64,000 bases of DNA from an uncultured Caulobacterales bacterium (GTDB taxonomy: Bacteria > Pseudomonadota > Alphaproteobacteria > Caulobacterales > Maricaulaceae). Position numbers and translations under genes: made by a program. Where the stretch lies: contig CALFUN010000008.1 of the NCBI GenBank assembly GCA_937929915.1, forward strand, positions 62,001-126,000, written 5' to 3'. The notes beneath the pieces are model-generated. The model was given only the letters and a program-made list of their open reading frames with translations, did no database searches and was not told the origin of the DNA. Positions 50,077 through 64,000 of this stretch are shown here, one piece after another; position 1 is the stretch's first letter, and each line of letters opens with the position of its first letter.

Positions 50077-53000
50077 ATGAATATCACAGATAAAGCACGC
50101 CTATTACAGACGTCCATTCTATCGAGCCTGATGTTAGGCTTAGGTGGAGTTGCATACGCGCAAACACCAGACCAAGTTCCAGCCCAAGTAGATGGGTTCG
50201 AGGAAGAGGATACAATCGTTGTAACAGGCTCACGTATTCGGCGCCGTTCAATCGAAACGATTTTTCCAACAAACAGCATTAACTCAGAAGTGCTACAAGA
50301 TCGTGGTTTTACAAATATTGCTGATGCTTTGGGTGAAATTCCTTCATTTGGCGGCAACACTACTGATTTTGGCGGTCAAAATGGCGCGACAGTCGGGCAG
50401 AACTTCGTTAACTTCTTAAACTTGGGGTCGCAAAGAACGCTTGTTCTTGTTGATGGGCGTCGTTTTGTTAACTCTGCAACTGCCTCGCTACAGGGTGCGA
50501 ATGGATTACAGGTTGATTTTAATGTAATCCCTTCAGCTTTGATTGAGCGTGTCGACACAATTGGGGTAGGCGGCGCGGCTGTGTATGGTGCTGATGCGAT
50601 TGCTGGTACGGTGAATGTTATTTTGAGAGATGATTTCGAGGGCCTTGAGGCGTCATCTCAGTATACTGTGACTGAGCAAGGAGATGCAGACAACTTAAAT
50701 ATTCAACTTGTTGCGGGTGCAAATTTTGATGATGACAAGGGTAATGTGACGTTCTCACTTGAATATGAAACACAAGAAGGTTTAAGTCAGCTTGATAGAG
50801 ATTCTATTTTTGCGCCTCAACAACAAGCTTTCTTTAGTGAGTTTTTCGATGGAACTGCCGCAAATGGCTTTGAAGATCAGTTGGCTATATTTAATGGTCA
50901 AGAAATTAATATCTTCACAAATGGCGGTGTAGCTTCACCAGGTAACGTATTTATTGGTACGTTTGGAGCTGGCGCATTTCCAGTTGATGGTCTGTTACAG
51001 TTCGATGCTGCGGGTAACTTGGTCCCGTTTAATGCAGGCGCGCCAATTCCTGGGCAAAGTGCATTTTTTGCTGATGGTGGTGATGGGTCAAATTTGTTCC
51101 AAGAGGTAGGGCAACTCCAAACACCTGCTGAACGTATTGTTGGAACATCTCGGTTTAATTATAGTTTTAGTGATCGTCTGACTGCAAATGCTGAGTTCTT
51201 ATTTGCAAACACCAATGCCGATGAATTAACAAATCAAGGTGGTTTCCAGTCTTTTGCGTTTCAAGGGGGATCTGGCGGGGCTTTAACGTTTAGTGTTAAT
51301 CATCCATTGCTAACAACTCAGGCGAGAAATACTTTACTTGCAAATGGCGTAGACCCTGTAACGGGAACATTTGTAGTAAACCGTTTGAATAACGATATTA
51401 TTGACTCATCTAATGATGTTGAAACAAGTCTTTGGCGTTTTTCAGGTGGTTTCGAGGGAACGTTTGACTTTGCGGGTCGTGAGTTTTCTTGGGATGCGCA
51501 ATTCACGCATGGTGAATCCAATCTAGAACAAAATGCGAGTGCCATTAATGACTTTGCATTCTTCAACGCCTTAGATGCTGTGGTGTTGACGCAAGCTGAT
51601 GTTGATGCGGCTGGTGGCATTGATTCAATTAATGCATTGTCTGGAATAACCGTTGGTGTTGGTGATGTTGTTTGTCAATCTGTTATTGATGCCGCTATTG
51701 ACCCTGATGCTGGTGTTGCACAAGGCAATAATGTTTCCGCGAATAATAATCCATTCGTGCAAGGTTGCGCACCATTGGATGTTTTTGGTGTTAATCGTGG
51801 TTCCACAGCGGCACTTGATTTTGTTACAGGGCCATCTACAATAACAGCAGACAACACGTCTCAACAATTTGTAGCTAACCTAACGGGTAGTTTGTTTGAT
51901 CTACCTGCAGGACCTTTGGCTTTTAATATTGGCTATGAAAGACGTTTGGAATCAGGCGCTTTTCAGCCATCTTTAGCTAATCAAATTGGTTTAGGTCGTG
52001 CAGCTGCAGTTAGTGAGAACGCTGGGTCATTCAGAACACAAGAGTTTTACGGTGAGTTGTCTGTACCAATCGTCTCACCTGATCTGGATATTCCATTTGT
52101 GCGTGAATTGTCAGCTGAAGGTGCTTACAGAACGATTGAGGTAAGTACGTTAGCGAACGACACAGAAGCCTTTACGGTTGGTGGTAAATATTCACCGATT
52201 GAGGATATTACATTTGTTGGTAATTACACTGAATCAACACGTCTTCCATCAATCGCAGAATTATTCACGCCTCTGGCTGGTACTTTCTCAGGTGCTGGTG
52301 ATCCTTGTGATCCTCGGAATTTGAATCAAGCTGCTGATGTTGCCTTGCGTACGGCTAACTGTGCATCAGTTGGTTTGCCTGATCTCTTTAGTACAAACCT
52401 TGGATCAAGTACAGGAACAGGTTTATCAAATATTGTTAATGCGACAGCTTTGGGGGCCAATGGTGGTAATCCAAATCTTATCCCAGAAACAGCAGAGGCC
52501 TTTACAGTCGGTGTGATTTTAGAACCACGTTTTATTCCTGATCTTTCAGTTAAACTTGATTATATTCAAGTCAATATTGATGATGCCATTCAAGGTGTGA
52601 GTTTGACACAAAACTTAAATGCATGTTTTGATAGTCCGAATTTCCCAAATGTACCACAATGTAATACATTTACTCGCGATGCAGGTGGTCAAATTGTTGA
52701 TTTTGTAATTGGTCAGGCAAATGCGGCTACATTTGAGACACAATTCTTGCAAGCTCAGGCATCATATTTTTATGATGTATCTGATGCTTTTAATTACTTT
52801 GGTGGCCTCTTAGGAAATTCATCAACGAGTTCAGATTGGGGCAGTGTTTCTCATAATCTTACTGTGTTCTCACCTCTTCAAAGAGATAACGCTGTTGGTG
52901 ATGAAGACCCCGCACTAAATAATATTCGTGGTGGTTTTGCGGACCCGAATGTTAGTCTTAACTTTGCAACCAATTACACGAAAGATAATCTTCGTGTATT

Positions 53001-53355
53001 CTGGGGTGTATTGTGGCAAGATAACCCACTTGTAACGACTAACCCATTAAATACGGATGAGTTTTTTAATGTGTTTACACCAAATGCAGCTGATCCTGTA
53101 GCTGGTGTTGATGCTGATGGCCGGTTAAATCCAGCTAATGCGATTACTAAAGGTGATGGCGGGCAATTTATTAATAATGCATCGATCTCATATAACCTTG
53201 AGGATGTTATTGGCTCGTCCGATACGATCTTACAGTTTGGTGTAAATAATGTATTTGATCGCCAACCAAGTTTATTAGAAAATGCCTTAGGTGACTTCAA
53301 TGCTGCACAAATATTTGGGCGGACCTATAGATTAAGCATCCGCTCACGCTTCTAG
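50077..53355 (+). CDS. TonB-dependent outer-membrane receptor
   Basis: A 1092-residue receptor. The signal peptide ends near VAYA. DTIVVTGSRIRRR contains the TonB box and plug start. The plug holds GFTNIADALGEIPSF, LVLVDGRRFVNS and VGGAAVYGADAIAGTVNVIL. A long beta-barrel with many aromatic Tyr/Phe strand ends follows, ending YRLSIRSRF, whose final Phe fits the BAM signal. No N-terminal signalling (STN) domain is present, so no anti-sigma link is expected. AAGGGG lies ten bases before the ATG. The ligand is unknown; sugars or peptides are possible in these groups. A terminator follows. Confidence 0.93.
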   Translation: MNITDKARLLQTSILSSLMLGLGGVAYAQTPDQVPAQVDGFEEEDTIVVTGSRIRRRSIETIFPTNSINSEVLQDRGFTNIADALGEIPSFGGNTTDFGGQNGATVGQNFVNFLNLGSQRTLVLVDGRRFVNSATASLQGANGLQVDFNVIPSALIERVDTIGVGGAAVYGADAIAGTVNVILRDDFEGLEASSQYTVTEQGDADNLNIQLVAGANFDDDKGNVTFSLEYETQEGLSQLDRDSIFAPQQQAFFSEFFDGTAANGFEDQLAIFNGQEINIFTNGGVASPGNVFIGTFGAGAFPVDGLLQFDAAGNLVPFNAGAPIPGQSAFFADGGDGSNLFQEVGQLQTPAERIVGTSRFNYSFSDRLTANAEFLFANTNADELTNQGGFQSFAFQGGSGGALTFSVNHPLLTTQARNTLLANGVDPVTGTFVVNRLNNDIIDSSNDVETSLWRFSGGFEGTFDFAGREFSWDAQFTHGESNLEQNASAINDFAFFNALDAVVLTQADVDAAGGIDSINALSGITVGVGDVVCQSVIDAAIDPDAGVAQGNNVSANNNPFVQGCAPLDVFGVNRGSTAALDFVTGPSTITADNTSQQFVANLTGSLFDLPAGPLAFNIGYERRLESGAFQPSLANQIGLGRAAAVSENAGSFRTQEFYGELSVPIVSPDLDIPFVRELSAEGAYRTIEVSTLANDTEAFTVGGKYSPIEDITFVGNYTESTRLPSIAELFTPLAGTFSGAGDPCDPRNLNQAADVALRTANCASVGLPDLFSTNLGSSTGTGLSNIVNATALGANGGNPNLIPETAEAFTVGVILEPRFIPDLSVKLDYIQVNIDDAIQGVSLTQNLNACFDSPNFPNVPQCNTFTRDAGGQIVDFVIGQANAATFETQFLQAQASYFYDVSDAFNYFGGLLGNSSTSSDWGSVSHNLTVFSPLQRDNAVGDEDPALNNIRGGFADPNVSLNFATNYTKDNLRVFWGVLWQDNPLVTTNPLNTDEFFNVFTPNAADPVAGVDADGRLNPANAITKGDGGQFINNASISYNLEDVIGSSDTILQFGVNNVFDRQPSLLENALGDFNAAQIFGRTYRLSIRSRF

Positions 53356-56244: not shown

Positions 56245-56318
56245 TGGGGCGTAGCCAAGCGGTAAGGCATCGGGTTTTGATCCCGTGATCGTTGGTTCGA
56301 ATCCAGCCGCCCCAACCA
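56245..56318 (+). tRNA. tRNA-Gln (anticodon TTG)
   Basis: A full cloverleaf: acceptor TGGGGCG with CGCCCCA, D arm GCCA-AGCGGTAA-GGC, anticodon loop TTTTGAT with anticodon TTG (77-79), a four-base variable loop, T arm GTTGG-TTCGAAT-CCAGC, discriminator A and an encoded CCA. The anticodon stem's outer pair (56270 and 56286) is a T-T mismatch where relatives usually have G-C. TTG reads CAA and, with modification, CAG. Confidence 0.97.
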
Positions 56319-56572: not shown

Positions 56573-57379
56573 GTGAAGCTTAACACCGCCCGTATTGCGT
56601 TTTGCGCTAGCTTGTTCATTGGGACTGCATTTAGTTCCGTTATGGCGACCGCGCAAAATAATGATAACGAAGCTAACTATGCCATGCTTTTGCAACAAAT
56701 TGCAGATACTAAGCTCGTGATTGCTCAAAAAGAAGCCTACCTAGCCACGCAACAATCGGAAATAGATGGCTTGAAGTCACAAATCGAGGCCATGCCAGCT
56801 CTCAAAGAATCTATCCGTCCGATTGTCACGCAAATGGCCGCTGAAATTGAAAAAGTCATCAATGCAGATTTACCCTTTCGTGCCCAAGAGCGTTATGCGC
56901 GGCTAGATAGTTTGAAATCTGATTTGGCAGATGCGAATGTGGGTGAAAGTGTTATCTACCGTAAGGCTATTACTTTATATGATATTGAAGCGAATTACGG
57001 GAATACTGTTGGGTCATACACAGGGGAAAACCCAGTAAACCCTAAGGGACGTCTTGAGGCATGTAAGGCAAATCTGGAGACAACGGCTTGCGCGATTACA
57101 GATGACTTGCGCGAAGCGTTAAAAGGCGGCGCGACGTTAGATCAGCTCTCTGAAGAAGGCGATCTTAATGATGGGAATTACATACATTTTGGCCGCCTCG
57201 CATTTCTATATCTGGAAATTGATAGCTCTGAAGGCTATCGTTATGATAAAGACAGCAAAGCCTGGGTTGAGTTGTCTCAGGGTGAGATTTTGGGGGTTCG
57301 CCGTTCTGTGCGTATTGCGCGCGGTGAAAGTGCAACAGGTGTTTTAACGGCCCCAATCGCGATTGACCCCGCACCATAA
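56573..57379 (+). CDS. DUF3450 periplasmic protein, first copy
   Basis: A 268-residue protein beginning at a GTG (56573), with GGAGG nine bases upstream and a signal peptide (RIAFCASLFIGTAFSSVMAT to about MATA). An early coiled coil (LQQIADTKLVIAQKEAYLAT, QQSEIDGLKSQIEAM) is followed by the DUF3450 core: PFRAQERYARLDSLKSDLAD, ALTLYDIEANYGNTVG and IHFGRLAFLYLEID. Compared with the next gene it has an extra Cys-pair insertion near residues 161-195 (GRLEACKANLETTACAITDD). DUF3450 proteins accompany TtpC-type TonB motors in marine bacteria. It is the first gene of the operon. Confidence 0.86.
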   Translation: MKLNTARIAFCASLFIGTAFSSVMATAQNNDNEANYAMLLQQIADTKLVIAQKEAYLATQQSEIDGLKSQIEAMPALKESIRPIVTQMAAEIEKVINADLPFRAQERYARLDSLKSDLADANVGESVIYRKAITLYDIEANYGNTVGSYTGENPVNPKGRLEACKANLETTACAITDDLREALKGGATLDQLSEEGDLNDGNYIHFGRLAFLYLEIDSSEGYRYDKDSKAWVELSQGEILGVRRSVRIARGESATGVLTAPIAIDPAP

Positions 57380-57449
57380 TTCAAAATTTATTAAGTTTAA
57401 GTCCAGTTGAAAGCTGGGGAAATAATTAACGCAGACCTGGAAGGAAACC

Positions 57450-58211
57450 ATGTTAAAATCTTCAATCGCCAAGCGTTTATTGCTTGCTGGTGCTGTTGGT
57501 GTGATGATGTCATCCCCCGCAAGTGCCCAACTCGAAAGCGCGTTGCAAGCCGCAAGCGCATCAACGCGAGCTTCTGCAGCGTCTCAGCAACGTATTTCTG
57601 ATCAAGATGATGCTGCGGATTCAGCTATCCGTGAATATCGCGCAGTCTTGCAGCAAAAAGACAATATTGGCTTGTTCGTCGCTCAACAAGAAATTTTCAG
57701 AGAATCACAATTTTCTGAAATTGCGAGTTTGAAGCGTCAATTAGGCACTGTGGAGCAAATTAAACAGGGCATGTCGCCTATGATGCTAAAAATGGCGGCA
57801 GCGCTAGAAGATAGCATTAATGAAGATTTGCCTTTTAACTTGAATGAGCGTTTAGCTCGTATCGAAGATGTCAAGAAAACGCTGGTCAATCCGGATGTTT
57901 CACCCGCTGAGCAATATCGCCGCGTATTAAACGCCTTCAAGATTGAGGTGTCTTACGGCCAAGGTATTGATAGTTACGAAGGCGCGCACCCTACGAAACC
58001 GGGTAATGTTGTGAATTTCATTCGCTTTGGGCGGACATCACTTGTTTATGTCTCAAAAGATGAGGCTGAATTGGCGCGTTATGATCTAGCGTCGAAATCA
58101 TGGGAAACTTTGACGGGGGGCGATGCCATTCAAATGCGCCAAGCTATTCGTATCGCCAAAGGCGAAGCGGCTCCAGGTATTGTGTACGCGCCCGTCGTGG
58201 TCGGAAATTAA
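57450..58211 (+). CDS. DUF3450 periplasmic protein, second copy
   Basis: A 253-residue paralogue of the preceding gene. A signal peptide (MLKSSIAKRLLLAGAVGVMM to about ASA) is followed by a helical hairpin (KDNIGLFVAQQEIFRESQFS) and the core MAAALEDSINEDLPFNLNER, LNAFKIEVSYGQGIDSYEG and FIRFGRTSLVYVSKD with the end AIRIAKGEAAPGIVYAPVVV. It lacks the cysteine insertion of the first copy. GGAAACC lies before the ATG. It is 71 bases from its paralogue and 15 bases before the motor gene. Confidence 0.88.
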   Translation: MLKSSIAKRLLLAGAVGVMMSSPASAQLESALQAASASTRASAASQQRISDQDDAADSAIREYRAVLQQKDNIGLFVAQQEIFRESQFSEIASLKRQLGTVEQIKQGMSPMMLKMAAALEDSINEDLPFNLNERLARIEDVKKTLVNPDVSPAEQYRRVLNAFKIEVSYGQGIDSYEGAHPTKPGNVVNFIRFGRTSLVYVSKDEAELARYDLASKSWETLTGGDAIQMRQAIRIAKGEAAPGIVYAPVVVGN

Positions 58212-58226
58212 GTTAGGTATAAGACA

Positions 58227-59618
58227 ATGAGTAAGACAATGAAAATCTTTACAAAGGCGACAGTGGCTGCCCTCGGCGCGGCTGTTCTTTTCTCGGCAAC
58301 CCCCGTAACGGCGCAAATTAGCTCTATTCCAGATCTCTTTAACAAGGTGCGTCAAGACGCGGCCAAGACTGAGCAGGAAAATCAACAGCGCGAGGCGGAA
58401 TTCCGCGCTCGGGCTAATGAGCAGCAGGCGCTTCTTTCAACAGCGCGCGGGGAGCTTGCAACATTAGAGCGCCAAGCGCAGCAAGTTGAAAATTCATTTG
58501 CAGCAAATCGCCGCGAAATCGATCAACTCGAAGGTGAATTGCGCGCGGCTCAAGGTGATTTTGGTGAAGTGTTCGGTCTGGCGCGTTCCAAGGCGGGTGA
58601 GTTTAAAGCGCTTTTGGATAGCTCTTTGATTACGTCGCAATATCCAACACGGACAACTGTTCTTGGCGAAGTGGCTAATTCTAAAGCCCTTCCAGGGTCA
58701 AATGAATTAAATGCGATTTGGCAGACAATGCTTCAAGAAATCAAGGCCCAGCGCCAGGTTGCGACATATGATGCACCTGTTGCGAATGTAAATGACGGTG
58801 CGACTCAATCTGTGACACGTGTTGGCCCATTTGCTGTTTTCACGGCCAATAGTGCTGAGTTTTTAGGGTATACTGCTCCAACGGCTGAGGGGAATTCGGA
58901 TATTCTACTCGCGAAGCTTCCAAAGCAACCCGCCGGACAAATTGCATCGGCTGCGAAGAATGTCGCAAATGGTAGCGGTCTTGTATATGCGCCGATTGAT
59001 CCGACCCGCGGTGAGCTTCTAAAATCTTTCGAGCGTGTTCCAAGCTTTAAAGAGCGTCATTGGATACAGGGCGGCCCGATTGGTAAGTTCATTATCATTA
59101 TGGCTGCTTTAGGCTCACTCTTTGGTATCTTTAATATTATTCGCTTATTCCTTGTGAAAATGGCTGTAGGTGGCCAAAAGCGTAAGGCGCAGGCTTCTAA
59201 AAGCAACCCTCTTGGCCGTGTCATGATGGCGTATGAAGGCGCGCAAAATAAGGATGCGGAAACCGTTGAGCTTAAGCTAGACGAAGCTATCTTGAAAGAA
59301 TCGCCTAAGCTAGAAACAGGTTTGAATATGCTTAAGCTTATGGCCGCGATTGCACCACTATTTGGTCTTCTCGGTACGGTTGTGGGTATGATCCAAACCT
59401 TCCAAGCTATGATGATCTACGGTACAGGTGATCCACAATTAATGGCGGGCGGTATTTCTGTTGCGCTTGTGACGACAATGCTTGGCCTATATGCCGCTAT
59501 CCCATTGTTAATTCTACATAGTTTCTGTTCGTCTATTGCACGATCTGTTCAGGGAACTCTAGAAGAGCAATCGGCTGGTATTGTTGCGCGCCACGTAGAA
59601 ACACGCGGTTCTGTTTAA
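58227..59618 (+). CDS. TtpC-like MotA/TolQ/ExbB protein with periplasmic extension
   Basis: A 463-residue inner-membrane proton-channel protein. It has a signal-peptide N-terminus (MSKTMKIFTKATVAALGAAV), a long periplasmic coiled coil (residues about 40-115, ENQQREAEFRARANEQQALL; VENSFAANRREIDQLEGEL), then membrane segment one (FIIIMAALGSLFGIFNIIRL). The TolQ/ExbB core follows, LMAAIAPLFGLLGTVVGMIQ with QLMAGGISVALVTTMLGLYA and AIPLLILHSFCSSIARS. This is the long ExbB type of TtpC systems. It is followed 44 bases later by a normal ExbB. Confidence 0.9.
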   Translation: MSKTMKIFTKATVAALGAAVLFSATPVTAQISSIPDLFNKVRQDAAKTEQENQQREAEFRARANEQQALLSTARGELATLERQAQQVENSFAANRREIDQLEGELRAAQGDFGEVFGLARSKAGEFKALLDSSLITSQYPTRTTVLGEVANSKALPGSNELNAIWQTMLQEIKAQRQVATYDAPVANVNDGATQSVTRVGPFAVFTANSAEFLGYTAPTAEGNSDILLAKLPKQPAGQIASAAKNVANGSGLVYAPIDPTRGELLKSFERVPSFKERHWIQGGPIGKFIIIMAALGSLFGIFNIIRLFLVKMAVGGQKRKAQASKSNPLGRVMMAYEGAQNKDAETVELKLDEAILKESPKLETGLNMLKLMAAIAPLFGLLGTVVGMIQTFQAMMIYGTGDPQLMAGGISVALVTTMLGLYAAIPLLILHSFCSSIARSVQGTLEEQSAGIVARHVETRGSV

Positions 59619-59662
59619 CCCCAACTGACCGAGCTTAGGCTTGGACAAGAGAGGTCATTTCG

Positions 59663-60193
59663 ATGGAAATGTTTAGCCCCATAAATACGTTTAACGGTCT
59701 CATGGAATTCCTTGAGACCGGTGGGTTTGTCTTAAAATTAATCATGGTTGCGGCCTTGTTTTTATGGACATTCATCATGGAACGTTTTGCATATTATCTA
59801 TTTGCGCATAAGCCCACTAAGGCTCGCTTGAAGGCTGAGTGGGATGCGCGTGAAGATAAGACATCATGGAAGGCCCACGCAATTCGCGATGAATTGGTCA
59901 GCCAAATTAAAGAGCGGACGGATACCAATGTAGGTATTATTAAAACGCTCGTCGCTTTAGCTCCGCTTTTGGGACTGCTTGGCACAGTAACTGGCATGAT
60001 CGAAGTGTTCGACGTTATGGCCTTGTCTGGCTCGTCTAATGCGCGCTTCATGGCGGCAGGTGTCTTTAAAGCCACTATTCCGACAATGGCGGGCATGGTT
60101 ACGGCTCTGTCTGGTCTGTATTTCTCGACTGTTCTGCCGCGCTGGAGTGCGCGCGAAACAGCCAAGTTTGCTGACGACCTTTCATTAAGTTAG
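59663..60193 (+). CDS. exbB: ExbB/TolQ-family proton channel
   Basis: A 176-residue short ExbB. It has three membrane segments (VLKLIMVAALFLWTFIMERF; TLVALAPLLGLLGTVTGMIE; AGMVTALSGLYFSTVLPRW) and the signature ALSGSSNARFMAAGVFKATI with PTMAG. Conducts protons with ExbD to power TonB. It sits between the TtpC-like gene and the first ExbD with 17 bases to the latter. Confidence 0.93.
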   Translation: MEMFSPINTFNGLMEFLETGGFVLKLIMVAALFLWTFIMERFAYYLFAHKPTKARLKAEWDAREDKTSWKAHAIRDELVSQIKERTDTNVGIIKTLVALAPLLGLLGTVTGMIEVFDVMALSGSSNARFMAAGVFKATIPTMAGMVTALSGLYFSTVLPRWSARETAKFADDLSLS

Positions 60194-60210
60194 TAAGAGA
60201 AGGATTTGAT

Positions 60211-60624
60211 ATGAGACGCGGACGCCGTAATTCTCAATCTGACGAAGCTGAAGTTGATATGACACCAATGCTCGACATTGTGTTTATCATGCTGATCTTC
60301 TTTATCGTGACAGCGACATTCCTTGATGAAACAGGGATTGACCTGACACAACCGCCGCCGCCGCCTGAAACAGAGGTGCCGCCTAATTCACCGCCTGCGA
60401 TTACTGTCTATGTGGACGCCCGAAATCAATGCGCTGTTGATGGTCGTTCAACGACTTGTGACCGTGTGACTTTGGCTGTTGAGCGTCTTTTGGCCGATAA
60501 ACCAGGGGCGTCAGTTATCTTGCGAATGGATGAGGGTGCCCAACACAAAATTCTTGTCGAGTTGAAGGATGGTTTGGATACAAATGGTCTGCCTACAAAA
60601 ATAGAAATTATTCGCGGGACTTAG
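60211..60624 (+). CDS. exbD: ExbD/TolR protein 1, with proline-rich linker and cysteine pair
   Basis: A 137-residue single-span motor protein. The membrane segment EVDMTPMLDIVFIMLIFFIV contains the proton-handling Asp (in MLDIV). The periplasmic linker is unusually proline-rich (LTQPPPPPETEVPPNSPP), then a carboxyl domain with a cysteine pair, CAVDGRSTTC, that the second ExbD lacks. A 61-base gap follows, with a palindrome. Confidence 0.93.
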   Translation: MRRGRRNSQSDEAEVDMTPMLDIVFIMLIFFIVTATFLDETGIDLTQPPPPPETEVPPNSPPAITVYVDARNQCAVDGRSTTCDRVTLAVERLLADKPGASVILRMDEGAQHKILVELKDGLDTNGLPTKIEIIRGT

Positions 60625-60638
60625 GTTAAAATTTTAAC
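60625..60638. promoter_or_regulatory. 14-base palindrome between the two exbD genes
   Basis: GTTAAAATTTTAAC is perfectly symmetric and begins one base after the exbD1 stop. It is too short for a terminator. It could be an operator, a processing site, or chance in A+T-rich DNA. Confidence 0.25.
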
Positions 60639-60685
60639 TGCTCTTTAAATTTGCAAACTGCTTAAAAGTGTGATAAGGTAACATT

Positions 60686-61081
60686 ATGGCAAGACGTAGT
60701 CGAACATCTATCCCAGAAGAGGATACAGAACTCAATATGACACCCATGTTGGATGTTGTATTTATTCTACTGATTTTTTTCATTGTTACATCTGTTTTTG
60801 TAAAAACACCTGGTTTTGATCCAACACAACCTGATGCCATTACGGATGCGGATTGGAAGCCATCTATTCTCATTGCGATTAATGCGCAAAATGAAGTTTG
60901 GATAGATAAATCACCTTATGATGTCACAGAAATTCGTCCTATTATTAAAGCGATTTTAGATGAAACGCCAAAAGCAGAAGGCATCATCAAAGCAGATAGG
61001 GACGCCGAAGTGGGGGTTGTCATGAGTGTTCAAGAACTCATGCAGGAATTAGGTGTCGATACGCGTGTTGGTACTGAATAA
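60686..61081 (+). CDS. exbD: ExbD/TolR protein 2
   Basis: A 131-residue motor protein with the membrane segment ELNMTPMLDVVFILLIFFIV (functional Asp present), then TSVFVKTPGFDPTQPDA and the periplasmic SILIAINAQNEVWIDKSPYD domain, which is more typical of ExbD than the first copy. Its linker is not polyproline. It ends 20 bases before the tonB start. Confidence 0.93.
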   Translation: MARRSRTSIPEEDTELNMTPMLDVVFILLIFFIVTSVFVKTPGFDPTQPDAITDADWKPSILIAINAQNEVWIDKSPYDVTEIRPIIKAILDETPKAEGIIKADRDAEVGVVMSVQELMQELGVDTRVGTE

Positions 61082-61101
61082 AACGGTTTAGGAGAATTAT
61101 T

Positions 61102-61734
61102 ATGAATAATAATATTGTGCGTTGGGTGGTCTTAATCCCTGTAGCTGCATTTGTCACCGTTAGTTTGTTTGTTCTTATGATGACGTTAATCGCGGATGAA
61201 TTTAAACCGCAAGATAAGCTCGAAAATGCAAGCTTTGAAATCAATCCAAAGGTTGAGGATATTAAAGTTATCCAACGCGAAACTCAAATTGATAAAGTCA
61301 AAAAAGTTGTCACGCCGCCGCCGCCGCCAACGATTGAACGGGCAAAATCTGATAAACCTTCGGAACCTATTGCGTCACTAGAAGGGGCTATTCCTGAATT
61401 TGAGGCACCTAAAATTGATCGCTCAAACTTTAAGATCGCTGTGTCAGATCGCGACGCGCAGCCTTTGGTTCGTATTCCGCCAATTATGCCAACGCGCGCG
61501 GAAAAATCTGGTCATTGTAAGGTTAGATTTGATGTGAGCCCAGAAGGTCAACCGTTTAATGTGACGGCGACATATTGCACACAAAGCTTGTTTGAGCGTT
61601 CATCGACAAAATCCGTACAAAAATGGAAGTATAATCCAAAAATCGTTGATGGCAGGGCTGTATCTCGTACAGGCGTTGAATCTAAAATTACATTCAAACT
61701 CACTGATGAACGTGGGCGTATAATACCTGAATAA
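61102..61734 (+). CDS. tonB: TonB-family protein
   Basis: A 210-residue TonB. One membrane anchor (VVLIPVAAFVTVSLFVLMMT), EFKPQDK just after, a short Pro-rich segment (KKVVTPPPPPTIERAKSD) and the C-terminal TonB fold: IMPTRAEKSGHCKVRFDVSP, NVTATYCTQSLFERSSTKSV and QKWKYNPKIVDGRAVSRTGV. Two cysteines in the fold may be bonded. It spans the periplasm and energises receptors such as the one at 50077. The next gene, 79 bases downstream, encodes the TPR protein. Confidence 0.92.
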   Translation: MNNNIVRWVVLIPVAAFVTVSLFVLMMTLIADEFKPQDKLENASFEINPKVEDIKVIQRETQIDKVKKVVTPPPPPTIERAKSDKPSEPIASLEGAIPEFEAPKIDRSNFKIAVSDRDAQPLVRIPPIMPTRAEKSGHCKVRFDVSPEGQPFNVTATYCTQSLFERSSTKSVQKWKYNPKIVDGRAVSRTGVESKITFKLTDERGRIIPE

Positions 61735-61813
61735 ACGGGTGTCAGTGTAACGAATTAGATACGTAAATTAAATTTTAGACCGACAATAACAATAACAATA
61801 GCAAGGCATTCTA

Positions 61814-63310
61814 ATGGCGAACTTATCTCTCAAAAATATCGTGACTGCGAAAGCAAAAACTCTATTGAGCGCGAGTTTTCTTGCTGTGTCTACCATCGGG
61901 GCCGTAAATATGGCGGTTATCTCGCCCGTATATGCGCAGGATCCCGAGCCACGTCAATTTTCTGCTAAGACCGGAGAAATCGTCTTAGAAGCGCAAAATT
62001 TCATGACGGCTGAGCAATATAGCGCAGCTCTTGGGAAGTTGTCTGAAGCTCTGGCGCTCCCTGAATTGAACTCATATGAAAAAGCTATTATCTATCAAAT
62101 GCAAGGCGCTTCATATTATGAACTTGATCAATATGGCCCTGCGATTAATGCCTTTGAAAATGCTGTAAATTCTGGGGGTCTTTTGCCAAATGAGGTTGAC
62201 AGTACAAAGGTTCAAATTGCGCAACTTCTCATTGGGAATGGACAATTTGCTGAAGGCGCACAAAGATTAGAGAATTATTTGAACTCTGGCGGACAAGAAA
62301 AGCCGCAATATGTTGAATTTTTAACACAAGCTTGGGTTCAAGCTGAAAATTATTCGCGCGCTCTGCCATGGGCAGAGAAATGGTTCCGTAATGCAAGTCC
62401 TAAAGAACGCAAGCATTTCGACCTGATGAACTTCTTATATAATAATCTTGGCCAGACAGGTAAGCAGGCTGATATTGTTAAGCAAATGATTAATCGTTGG
62501 CCAGAGGATAAAGCGCTTTGGGATGCGTGGGCCTCTATGCTAGCCAATGGCGGACGTGAGCAAGAAGCTTTCGAAGTGACGAAAATGCTATATCTTGGCG
62601 GCGCTTTAAATAGTGAATCTGATCTTTTGAAGGTTGTTCAATATTACAGTTTCTACGAAATGCCATATCAAGCGGCACAAATTTTGGAACGTGAAATGAA
62701 TGCTGGACGGATTTCCAGATCAACAGTTCAGTTAAAGCAATTATCTAATTTATTCCGGCAGGCCCGCGAATATAAGCGGGCTATACCTATCTTAGAACAA
62801 GCCGCTAAGAGTTCTGGCGAAGCAAAACTCTATGCTGATCTTGGCGAAGCTTTATATAATGAAGGTGATTGCTCTAAATCGGAAACAGCCTTTAAAGAGG
62901 CGATTAATAGAGGCTATGATGCTGGGAAATCATGGAGTTTGATCGCAAATTGCCGTTATGAAAAAACGCAACAACAAGCGCGACTAAATTGTGGTATGAC
63001 AGATGCGCAGATGAATGAGGCGCCGATTACGAGATCTCGCCTCTCTGCTATTGAAGCCTTCAAAAACGTACCAAGCTCATCACGTCAAAGTGGTGATGCG
63101 AAAAAATGGATCAAATTTGTTAATGCTGAGCGTGATGCGATTAATCGTCGTTGCGAATTTGAACGTTCAGTTGAAAAAGAATTATGTTTTCAAAAAATTA
63201 AAGGGGCTTATGCCGAAGAAGTCTTTGTGGGTAAGCTCATTATTCCTGAAGAATGCGCCGTTTTCAAAGAAGAATATGATACGAAGTTCCGTATCGTGAC
63301 GGTTGAATAA
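61814..63310 (+). CDS. TPR-repeat exported protein of the TonB operon
   Basis: A 498-residue protein with a signal peptide (ending near VYA) and a helical TPR-like array: SAALGKLSEALALPELNSYE, YELDQYGPAINAFENAVNSG, QLLIGNGQFAEGAQRLENYL, LFRQAREYKRAIPILEQAAK and ALYNEGDCSKSETAFKEAIN. Cysteines cluster near the C-terminus. TPR proteins end TtpC-type TonB operons in vibrios and relatives, where they are needed for efficient TonB use. The 5' leader has an AACAAT-type short repeat. A terminator follows at 63340. Confidence 0.9.
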   Translation: MANLSLKNIVTAKAKTLLSASFLAVSTIGAVNMAVISPVYAQDPEPRQFSAKTGEIVLEAQNFMTAEQYSAALGKLSEALALPELNSYEKAIIYQMQGASYYELDQYGPAINAFENAVNSGGLLPNEVDSTKVQIAQLLIGNGQFAEGAQRLENYLNSGGQEKPQYVEFLTQAWVQAENYSRALPWAEKWFRNASPKERKHFDLMNFLYNNLGQTGKQADIVKQMINRWPEDKALWDAWASMLANGGREQEAFEVTKMLYLGGALNSESDLLKVVQYYSFYEMPYQAAQILEREMNAGRISRSTVQLKQLSNLFRQAREYKRAIPILEQAAKSSGEAKLYADLGEALYNEGDCSKSETAFKEAINRGYDAGKSWSLIANCRYEKTQQQARLNCGMTDAQMNEAPITRSRLSAIEAFKNVPSSSRQSGDAKKWIKFVNAERDAINRRCEFERSVEKELCFQKIKGAYAEEVFVGKLIIPEECAVFKEEYDTKFRIVTVE

Positions 63311-63339
63311 TAAGGCGTCTGTTAAATCATAGATAGCTC

Positions 63340-63367
63340 AAACCCAGTCTTGAGGCTGGGTTTTTCT
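63340..63367 (+). terminator. Rho-independent terminator after the TPR gene
   Basis: AAACCCAG (63340-63347) pairs with CTGGGTTT (63356-63363) around an eight-base loop, then T-rich TTCTTT. It closes the DUF3450-to-TPR operon. Confidence 0.88.
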
Positions 63368-63504
63368 TTGGCTAAAGGCTTTGAGGTCTTTATACCGTAA
63401 AGCTGTATTTACACCTATGCGCTTCAATTATATTTCCTTTTTAGGTCTATATTTACCATGGCGGCTTCAAATTCTTGTTTAAAAGGAGTGAGATGGCACC
63501 TTAC

Positions 63505-63533
63505 TTTACACTGCCAGTAAATTATGTTATAAT
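63505..63533 (+). promoter_or_regulatory. sigma-70-like promoter of the second tonB gene
   Basis: TTTACA (63505-63510) is a good -35. Exactly 17 bases later is a perfect TATAAT (63528-63533). Predicted RNA start is about 63540, 23 bases before the ATG. Confidence 0.75.
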
Positions 63534-63562
63534 ATATCATTAACTGATATGGAGGACATTTA

Positions 63563-64000
63563 ATGCTACACAAAGACATGTCTGAAACCCCAAAACCAGC
63601 CATGACACAGTCGATGCGTTGGGGATTGGCTCTGCCATTCGCTGTTTTGATAACAATAGGGCTAGGGGCTGTTATGGCCAGTTTAATCGCTGCCGAATTT
63701 ATCCCGCAAGATAAGCGCGCTGTTGTTAGAGCAAATATAAACCCTGTGGCAGTGGATATTTTTCGCACTAATTGTATTGTTCCACCAAGGCACCCAAGAG
63801 AAATAGAGGTACCACCACCACCGCCAAGCTTGAGTATAGCGAAAACCGAATCCGTAAATTTGAGCATTATCACACCAAAAGACGTGGTGTTTGAGCTTGA
63901 TTGGGCGAGTATATTGCCTGAAAAAGCTGTGAGTTTGAACATAGATAGTCAGTATCAACCGATTGTGCGCGCAGCACCAATCATGCCGCTTAACGCACAC
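63563..64000 (+). CDS. second TonB-family protein (3' end beyond window)
   Basis: The ATG at 63563 has GGAGG (63551-63555) upstream. The visible 146 codons encode a short tail, a membrane anchor (PFAVLITIGLGAVMASLIAA), EFIPQDKRA as in the first TonB, a proline-rich segment (EVPPPPPSLSIAKTE) and the first part of the C-terminal fold (QYQPIVRAAPIMPLNAH) matching PLVRIPPIMPTRA of the first copy. This is a paralogue of the tonB at 61102. The C-terminal contact region is missing. Its own promoter and the terminator before it make it a separate unit, perhaps with further genes beyond the window. Confidence 0.85.
   Translation, partial: MLHKDMSETPKPAMTQSMRWGLALPFAVLITIGLGAVMASLIAAEFIPQDKRAVVRANINPVAVDIFRTNCIVPPRHPREIEVPPPPPSLSIAKTESVNLSIITPKDVVFELDWASILPEKAVSLNIDSQYQPIVRAAPIMPLNAH

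Follow-up and report, generated by a model that had tools for sequence, protein, structure and literature searches.

How many motors does a TonB-energising gene cluster with doubled parts encode? This question is raised by the last part of a 64,000-nucleotide stretch of DNA (the window) from contig CALFUN010000008.1 (positions 62001-126000) of an uncultured bacterium of the Maricaulaceae, in which nine genes starting at position 56573 encode two DUF3450 proteins, a TtpC-like long ExbB, a short ExbB, two ExbDs, a TonB, a TPR protein, and a second TonB. The initial annotation of this stretch left a choice between two motors and one heteromeric motor. By their sequences, genes 1-8 (56573-63310) are the TtpB-TtpC-ExbB-ExbD-TonB-TtpD energiser of Vibrio, here with DUF3450/TtpB and ExbD each in two copies, and the heteromeric motor turned out to be the better of the two ideas, with the two-motor idea losing ground since relatives with a single ExbD carry both ExbB types. 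We set out below the evidence for this reading, in which ExbD1 and ExbD2 would pair as a heterodimer, and the points that weigh on either side of it.

A TtpC-type energiser with two ExbDs

All nine genes are open, intact, and, as the initial annotation had stated, in one direction (the forward strand), per a sequence check of the window and its parent contig. DUF3450 (TtpB) genes head the operon, as in TtpC-type systems: DUF3450a or TtpB-a (56573-57379) begins with GTG and encodes 268 amino acids (aa) with an apparent signal peptide by eye (PF11932, 131 bits), and DUF3450b or TtpB (57450-58211, 253 aa) is the conserved DUF3450 protein (202 bits; the Pfam cut-off is 32.6). The TtpC-like long ExbB (58227-59618, 463 aa) has its MotA_ExbB domain (PF01618, 104 bits at residues 336-442; cut-off 22.9) behind a large periplasmic region, and a separate short ExbB (59663-60193, 176 aa, 76 bits) lies immediately 3' of it. 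Instead of the single ExbD of the Vibrio TonB2 type, two ExbDs are present, ExbD1 (60211-60624, 137 aa; PF02472, 84 bits) and ExbD2 (60686-61081, 131 aa, 79 bits; cut-off 25.4). The conserved TonB, TonB1 (61102-61734, 210 aa; PF03544, 45 bits; cut-off 24.6), is then followed by a TtpD-like protein matching TPR families (61814-63310, 498 aa, apparent signal peptide by eye), whose gene is the probable final gene of the operon. TonB2 (63563-64000 in the window) extends beyond the window; the parent contig has the whole gene, which encodes 223 aa and stops at window-equivalent 64234. Its in-window portion has no Pfam match, the C-terminal domain straddling the window end; in the genome search the full domain scored 41.5 bits. 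Paralogues within the cluster are 31% (DUF3450a/b), 30% (ExbD1/2), and 40% (TonB1/2) identical. Pfam matches and gene order thus bear out a system of the TtpC type in which DUF3450, ExbD, and TonB are each doubled.

Both ExbDs pass PF02472 despite sub-threshold scores with the NCBIfam equivalog models TIGR02803 and TIGR02804 (ExbD) and TIGR02801 (TolR), which gave 26-47 bits, below cut-offs of 123-153. The short ExbB likewise scored 31.7 bits with TIGR02805 (exbB2), below the cut-off of 135.35. The residues expected of a 5:2 proton-driven motor are present, namely a transmembrane Asp in the B subunit and channel Thr in the A subunit. Equivalents of Thr148 and Thr181, which we take to be the numbering of the ExbB channel Thr residues, occur throughout 196 rows of TtpC and short ExbB, bar 1 and 2 gaps, and in 44/44 short ExbBs of the family sample described below. 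One Fur-box pattern had 0 matches at locus L004.

The Vibrio TonB2 system, described with the order ttpB2-ttpC2-exbB2-exbD2-tonB2-ttpD2 (PMC6957404), shares all six kinds of gene and their order with the cluster, the DUF3450 gene coming first and the TPR gene last. In contrast to that system, the present cluster has two ExbDs, a second DUF3450 gene, a further TonB past a terminator-like hairpin, and a longer TPR protein (498 aa versus 425 aa). The same order with one ExbD is also found in Gammaproteobacteria such as Shewanella, Alteromonas, Pseudoalteromonas, and Rheinheimera, and in Teredinibacter the tonB2 of such a cluster is described as able to serve both carbohydrate and iron uptake (PMC10734418). 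Two adjacent, diverged ExbDs are likewise described in Xanthomonas (tonB-exbB-exbD1-exbD2, PMC3551730) and in Sphingobium SYK-6 (tonB1-exbB1-exbD1-exbD2, PMC8599685), the available text of these two reports naming no TtpC, DUF3450, or TtpD. In SYK-6, Asp25 is reported to be kept in both ExbDs and neither ExbD could be disrupted (PMC8599685). Tol-Pal (TolQR) belongs to the same motor superfamily and shares the Asp and Thr channel residues, but the window genome has separate TolQ/TolR-like loci, and its TolR-like rows fall outside the clade of TtpC-type ExbDs. Lastly, a study of MotAB-like "generic ion transporters" lists DUF3450, with no function given in the text available, as an extra N-terminal domain of motor A subunits (PMC12505986), a position like that in TtpC; the terms TtpC and ExbD2 are absent from its main text. 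The parts and their order are therefore already known from the Vibrio TonB2 type, and tandem ExbDs are already known elsewhere. Our literature search, mostly outside subscription journals, turned up neither a TtpC system with a pair of ExbDs nor a second TtpB, and no earlier mention that TtpB and the periplasmic region of TtpC are homologous.

The ExbD pair is conserved across the family

The family sample consists of 45 loci of one family, probably the Maricaulaceae, one from the window genome and the rest from 44 of the other 98 genomes, annotated with phmmer and profiles. A DUF3450 match was found in 99/99 family genomes searched (the window's own included), 98 of them above the Pfam cut-off. 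The six-gene core DUF3450-TtpC-ExbB-ExbD1-ExbD2-TonB is contiguous in 42/45 loci, the exceptions being a contig end (L051), a split TtpC (L041), and a DUF3450 gene hidden by an overlapping open reading frame (ORF) call yet open in the genome search (L023). TonB is directly followed by a TPR gene in 43/45 loci; 9/45 contain two or more TPR ORFs, in part fragments. An Oceanicaulis locus groups among the family rows in the TonB tree, and the locus of Glycocaulis albus (L121) has a single DUF3450 gene and a single TonB. All 44 scorable loci have two ExbDs, L051 being cut before them. An isolated or decaying arrangement can thus be rejected. The nine-gene order that the initial annotation proposed to look for holds for the core and does not extend to TonB2, which lies outside the conserved set.

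Beyond the family sample, ExbDs were counted in the best 80 of at least 580 confirmed matches (the best-80 set, whose counts are not frequencies) and in further loci outside it. Within the best-80 set, two ExbDs are present in 7/8 Alphaproteobacteria (L118 and L119 among those are family members), while 61 gammaproteobacterial loci have one ExbD in 56 cases, two in 2, none called in 1, and a cut in 2; Myxococcota and unclassified Pseudomonadota have one in 6/6. Outside the set, 22 other alphaproteobacterial loci have two ExbDs in 15 cases, one in 6, and a cut in 1, and 30 loci of other Pseudomonadota have one in 26, two in 1, none called in 2, and a cut in 1. Six loci lacking a TtpC/ExbB pair by profile, L051 included, were set aside from these counts, and duplicates (L117, L120, L121, and L122) were dropped. 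Tandem ExbDs are common in Alphaproteobacteria: a reading of gene coordinates found them within about 1 kb of each other in 16/54 genomes besides the window's own, one of which (G101) is of the TtpC type. We also observed four highly diverged loci (L080, L112, L114, and L115) with apparently the same set, i.e., DUF3450, a TtpC-like protein, a short ExbB-like protein, ExbD, and two ORFs of TonB/TPR size; two genomes with this diverged form (G656 and G607) also carry the ordinary form, in L077-L079.

Descent of the two ExbDs

An ExbD tree of 127 sequences places those of the TtpC type in a single clade (support 100/97), separate from the 30 ExbDs encoded at 16 canonical tandem loci fetched from Alphaproteobacteria; 0/16 of these loci have a DUF3450 match. 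Many canonical rows in this tree are long-branched. Uniting the second ExbDs of TtpC-type and canonical tandem systems is rejected (p-AU 8e-37, approximately unbiased test), and with it the idea that both stem from the same duplication; judged by these sequences, tandem ExbD doubling arose separately in the two. The doubled TtpC-type ExbDs fall in one group (98/92), which also holds a few single forms. The careful ExbD tree was built from 8 family loci and a selection of single-ExbD loci from the best-80 set, and omitted L070, L085, L100, L101, L102, L105, L111, and L115. In the ExbD and TonB trees that the initial annotation had called for, the TtpC-type ExbDs come out as one clade, the ExbD1 group is weak, and the extra TonBs are scattered.

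Neither ExbD shows signs of decay, a possibility that the initial annotation had raised for ExbD1. The Asp25 equivalent is present in ExbD1 and in ExbD2 of 44/44 family copies each, and in 154/154 TtpC-type ExbDs overall, and the transmembrane segments of both are nearly invariant in the family. Away from these shared features the two paralogues retain different residues. We scored 66 columns conserved in 95 single ExbDs and called a column uneven when the family paralogues differed by at least 0.5; 17/66 columns are uneven, 9 being retained mainly in ExbD2 and 8 mainly in ExbD1. For instance, single ExbDs have a Lys-Glu just past the membrane helix (85% and 83%), of which the Lys is found in ExbD2 in 46/46 and in ExbD1 in 0/46, and the adjacent Glu in ExbD1 in 46/46 and in ExbD2 in 19/46. 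Asp120 (numbered, as is Asp107, by PDB chain 6tyi_Y) is present in 96% of ExbD1 and 13% of ExbD2, and Asp107 in all ExbD2, in 39% of ExbD1 in the family, and in 15% of other alphaproteobacterial ExbD1. In Serratia ExbD, residues 104, 106, and 112, which adjoin Asp107, are described as lying at the dimer interface (PMC10771500). Not included in the retention count are the single rows L063 (contig cut) and L115, an extra L102 ExbD, both TolR-like rows from the window genome, and the ExbD pairs of L093, L178, and L179, which are not alphaproteobacterial. Three f6 loci (L059, L060, and L062) seem to have their ExbDs in the opposite order and were relabelled from the trees (Shimodaira-Hasegawa approximate likelihood ratio test, SH-aLRT, 96; 88/46).

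A structure has been described in which a single TonB D-box strand is flanked by two ExbDs, running parallel with one of them and antiparallel with its partner (PMC10907165), so that the two ExbD roles are unequal. Loss in both directions is the pattern of subfunctionalised partners, and together with the joint hold on one TonB strand it makes an ExbD1:ExbD2 heterodimer the best and simplest reading of these sequences.

Several observations weigh against it. The ExbD1 clade is weakly supported in the careful tree (88/46), and the window's own ExbD1 holds both Asp107 and Asp120. Of the 17 uneven columns, only 6 (the Lys, three Ala, and the two Asps) show the same bias in 20 other alphaproteobacterial pairs, a number that becomes 5 without the three relabelled loci and 4 with those loci left as they stand. 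Uneven retention could also arise if ExbD1 and ExbD2 worked in different complexes. Some Alphaproteobacteria have TtpC systems with a single ExbD (6/22 outside the best-80 set and 1/8 within it). Lastly, Xanthomonas exbD2 is reported as dispensable for iron uptake (PMC3551730), a point qualified by the canonical tandem pairs that we tested, which exclude those of Xanthomonas and SYK-6, being other duplications.

DUF3450 is homologous to the periplasmic region of TtpC

A DUF3450 profile of 95 proteins aligned to a profile of the TtpC periplasmic region (93 proteins) with an hhalign probability of 98.3 (E 1e-13). As a control against a mere coiled-coil match, both profiles were cut to their C-terminal parts, which still aligned with a score of 33.7 (probability 65), versus 7.2-15.8 (probability at most 1.1) for 20 column-shuffled controls. 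By profile comparison, then, DUF3450 and the periplasmic part of TtpC are homologues. AlphaFold2 models of TtpC and DUF3450b (mean predicted local distance difference test scores of 88.8 and 87.9), made separately and compared without superposition, share one topology. The TtpC model has a helix at 34-131, shorter helices at 142-151 and 158-175, five strands in 178-230, and a helix at 238-248; the DUF3450b model has a 101-residue helix at 25-125, helices at 131-146 and 152-169, five strands in 173-220, and a helix at 223-236. Foldseek matched the TtpC model to ExbB/TolQ folds and, searching PDB, gave no match to the DUF3450b model at E<=0.001. We found no solved structure of a DUF3450-type domain, sequence matches outside the ExbB part being confined to coiled-coil stretches (the best an SMC coiled coil, E 5e-5, and one NccX, E 6e-4). 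TtpB is thus best regarded as the TtpC stalk copied into a free periplasmic protein, which would co-assemble with TtpC.

The second DUF3450 protein has a narrower distribution. DUF3450a is present at the locus in 27/27 loci of one sub-clade of the family and in 0/18 other family loci, membership being assigned by the TonB tree for 26 loci and by its DUF3450b for L051. In the tree, the 27 DUF3450a sequences are monophyletic (SH-aLRT 99) and group with the DUF3450b of their own sub-clade (99), which indicates that DUF3450a arose once. Some family genomes without DUF3450a at the locus have further DUF3450 matches elsewhere in the genome.

TonB2 probably lies outside the operon

Genes 1-8 are packed, with gaps of 15-79 bp, as the initial annotation had said of all nine; TonB2 does not share in this, lying 252 bp beyond the TPR gene. 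Between them are an intrinsic terminator-like hairpin (63340-63363, forward strand; 10 pairs with a T-rich tail) and a promoter-like site (63505-63533, forward strand; TTTACA-17-TATAAT, a single consensus match with TG before the second hexamer). The 75 nt surrounding the hairpin have a folding z-score of -2.2, with 5/200 shuffles folding at least as well, and the promoter-like site is the best match of the region (11/12), ending 29 bp before the TonB2 start. Across the whole region, promoter-like sites (17 found versus 16.9 in shuffles) and terminator-like sites (8 found versus 9.7 expected) are not above shuffles, and the argument therefore rests on conservation of the hairpin. A terminator-like hairpin within 150 nt of the TPR stop is present in 20/22 family loci with a TonB next versus 10/110 shuffles, and in 21/27 with something other than TonB next versus 54/291 intervals inside the operon; taken together, it is present in 41/49 where a TonB or an unrelated gene follows, and in 2/4 where another TPR ORF follows. 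We would like to note that such hairpins also occur inside the operon (54/291 intervals), including after the short ExbB in 23/44.

A second TonB is present in 26/45 family loci. In a TonB tree made by a quick method, the extra TonBs fall in separate groups in the two sub-clades of the family, and again in Hyphomonadaceae, Microbulbifer, and others. They also diverge faster, with mean identities of 69% for first TonBs and 38% for extra TonBs in sub-clade I (13 loci; same direction in 78/78 pairs) and 63% and 35% in sub-clade II (12 loci; 66/66 pairs). Extra TonBs thus appear, from their sequences, to be fast-evolving, repeatedly arisen, and often absent, and given also the hairpin after the TPR gene, TonB2 is probably a separately transcribed accessory outside the operon; its candidacy as a core part is rejected. 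The initial annotation had also allowed for decay, but TonB2 retains its N-terminal anchor, an Ile-Asn-Pro stretch that could be the site of a D-box-like strand, and its C-terminal domain, which marks it by sequence as an accessory and not a decayed gene. In three loci (L024, L030, and L053) TonB-TPR occurs as a repeated unit, which suggests a partnership of the TPR protein with TonB. In addition, canonical alphaproteobacterial TonB-ExbB-ExbD-ExbD operons at L197, L201, and L202 are followed by a protein matching the TtpD/TPR profile.

Proposed mechanism and its rivals

As the best explanation of the whole, which we consider slightly more likely than not to be right, the cluster would encode a TtpC-type energiser with an ExbD1:ExbD2 heterodimer axle, a TtpB collar, and an accessory TonB2. 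TtpC and the short ExbB would form the membrane ring or rings, and ExbD1 and ExbD2, each with its proton-binding Asp25, would form the dimeric axle. Proton flow through the ring around this axle would move TonB1, which, pulled by the axle, would open TonB-dependent receptors. TtpB-a, TtpB-b, and the periplasmic domain of TtpC probably assemble as a collar or strut that would allow a TonB as short as TonB1 (210 aa) to act across the periplasm, where the TPR protein (TtpD) may act on TonB. TonB2 would borrow the same motor, perhaps for particular receptors, with its own expression and role.

A stronger version of this explanation, possible but less likely than not, has the axle as an obligate heterodimer that followed an ancestral alphaproteobacterial ExbD duplication and divided two unequal roles, namely the parallel and the antiparallel grip on the D-box and two non-equivalent Asp25 positions. 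It would add a mixed TtpC/short ExbB ring and a hetero-oligomeric collar of the periplasmic domains of TtpC and TtpB-b, joined in one sub-clade by those of TtpB-a. A mixed ring is hinted at by the Glu176 position of ExbB, which in the family is Glu in 30/44 TtpC and Lys/Arg in 42/44 short ExbB, jointly in 29/44 pairs; relatives outside the family mostly lack Glu here. Telling against this is the window's own pair, Val/Lys, with Val in TtpC, and we do not rely on the pattern.

Could TtpC with one ExbD and the short ExbB with the other form two motors in one operon, each with a homodimer axle and sharing TonB and the periplasmic parts? It has in its favour that ExbB-like and ExbD-like proteins both come in twos, and that two gammaproteobacterial loci (L150 and L172) add a DUF3450-TtpC-ExbD module, with no short ExbB detected, beside a full six-gene set, so that TtpC may work without a short ExbB. 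Against this, TtpC and the short ExbB accompany a single ExbD in 56/61 gammaproteobacterial loci of the best-80 set, so one ExbD suffices for both, and uneven retention runs both ways (9 columns to 8), leaving two separate motors unlikely. At L150 and L172, the second module is followed by two unlabelled ORFs.

The ExbDs might instead form homodimer axles with divided labour, one for TonB1 and the other for TonB2, or one for signalling and the other for transport as suggested for Xanthomonas, where exbD2 is reported to be needed for pectate lyase induction and not for iron uptake (PMC3551730). The presence of a second TonB fits this, and the uneven retention is equally compatible with it. Nevertheless, the ExbD pair is in every scorable family locus and the second TonB in little more than half, so the doublings do not track each other, and the Xanthomonas case may not transfer since canonical tandem ExbDs are separate duplications; we therefore regard a division of labour as doubtful, if less so than two motors. 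Ordinary duplication for gene dosage with no new mechanism would suit DUF3450a and TonB2, both lineage-limited duplicates, but with ExbD1 and ExbD2 only 30% identical and each family group strongly conserved in its own way, these two are not redundant copies, and dosage as the whole explanation is very improbable.

Other motors, receptors, and neighbouring genes

Outside the cluster, the window genome (2.49 Mb, estimated 91.7% complete) has two further pairs of an ExbB-type and an ExbD-type gene. The ExbB-type products score 246 and 249 bits as TolQ, above the cut-off of 221, and 15 TonB-dependent receptor plugs were detected. Since the other ExbB-type proteins are TolQs, the cluster is probably the cell's only Ton (non-Tol) motor and would probably energise all 15 receptors. 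Less favourable to this are the single TolR-type partner scanned, whose score of 124.8 is just below the cut-off of 127.3, and the incompleteness of the genome, as another Ton motor could be missing from the assembly. The two TolQ/TolR-like pairs, at G000:C18:8723-9620 (L005 and L014) and G000:C30:2197-3088 (L006 and L013), are very similar but not identical; they may stem from a duplication or from a second strain present in the assembly.

Upstream, the cluster is flanked by a tRNA gene (56245-56315) and a divergent gene for a 590-aa protein, presumably SppA-like, and downstream by a gene on the opposite strand for a 715-aa protein that we take to be prolyl-oligopeptidase-like. Homologues of these two flank genes are found in 38/45 and 33/45 family loci, so the chromosomal position of the cluster is largely fixed. 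A 1092-aa TonB-dependent receptor is encoded at 50077-53355, a few kb upstream of the operon, with two opposite-strand genes and the tRNA gene between.

Implications

In published structures of Ton motors, the two chemically identical ExbDs have non-equivalent helices (PMC10771500) and an asymmetric grip on TonB (PMC10907165). If the two roles have been split into two genes here, each could be mutated on its own, and the separate ExbD doublings would suggest that such splitting of the axle has been repeatedly favoured. TtpB and TtpD are reported to be needed for TonB2-mediated uptake in Vibrio vulnificus (PMC6957404), and the homology of TtpB to the periplasmic region of TtpC would provide a testable mechanism for the former.

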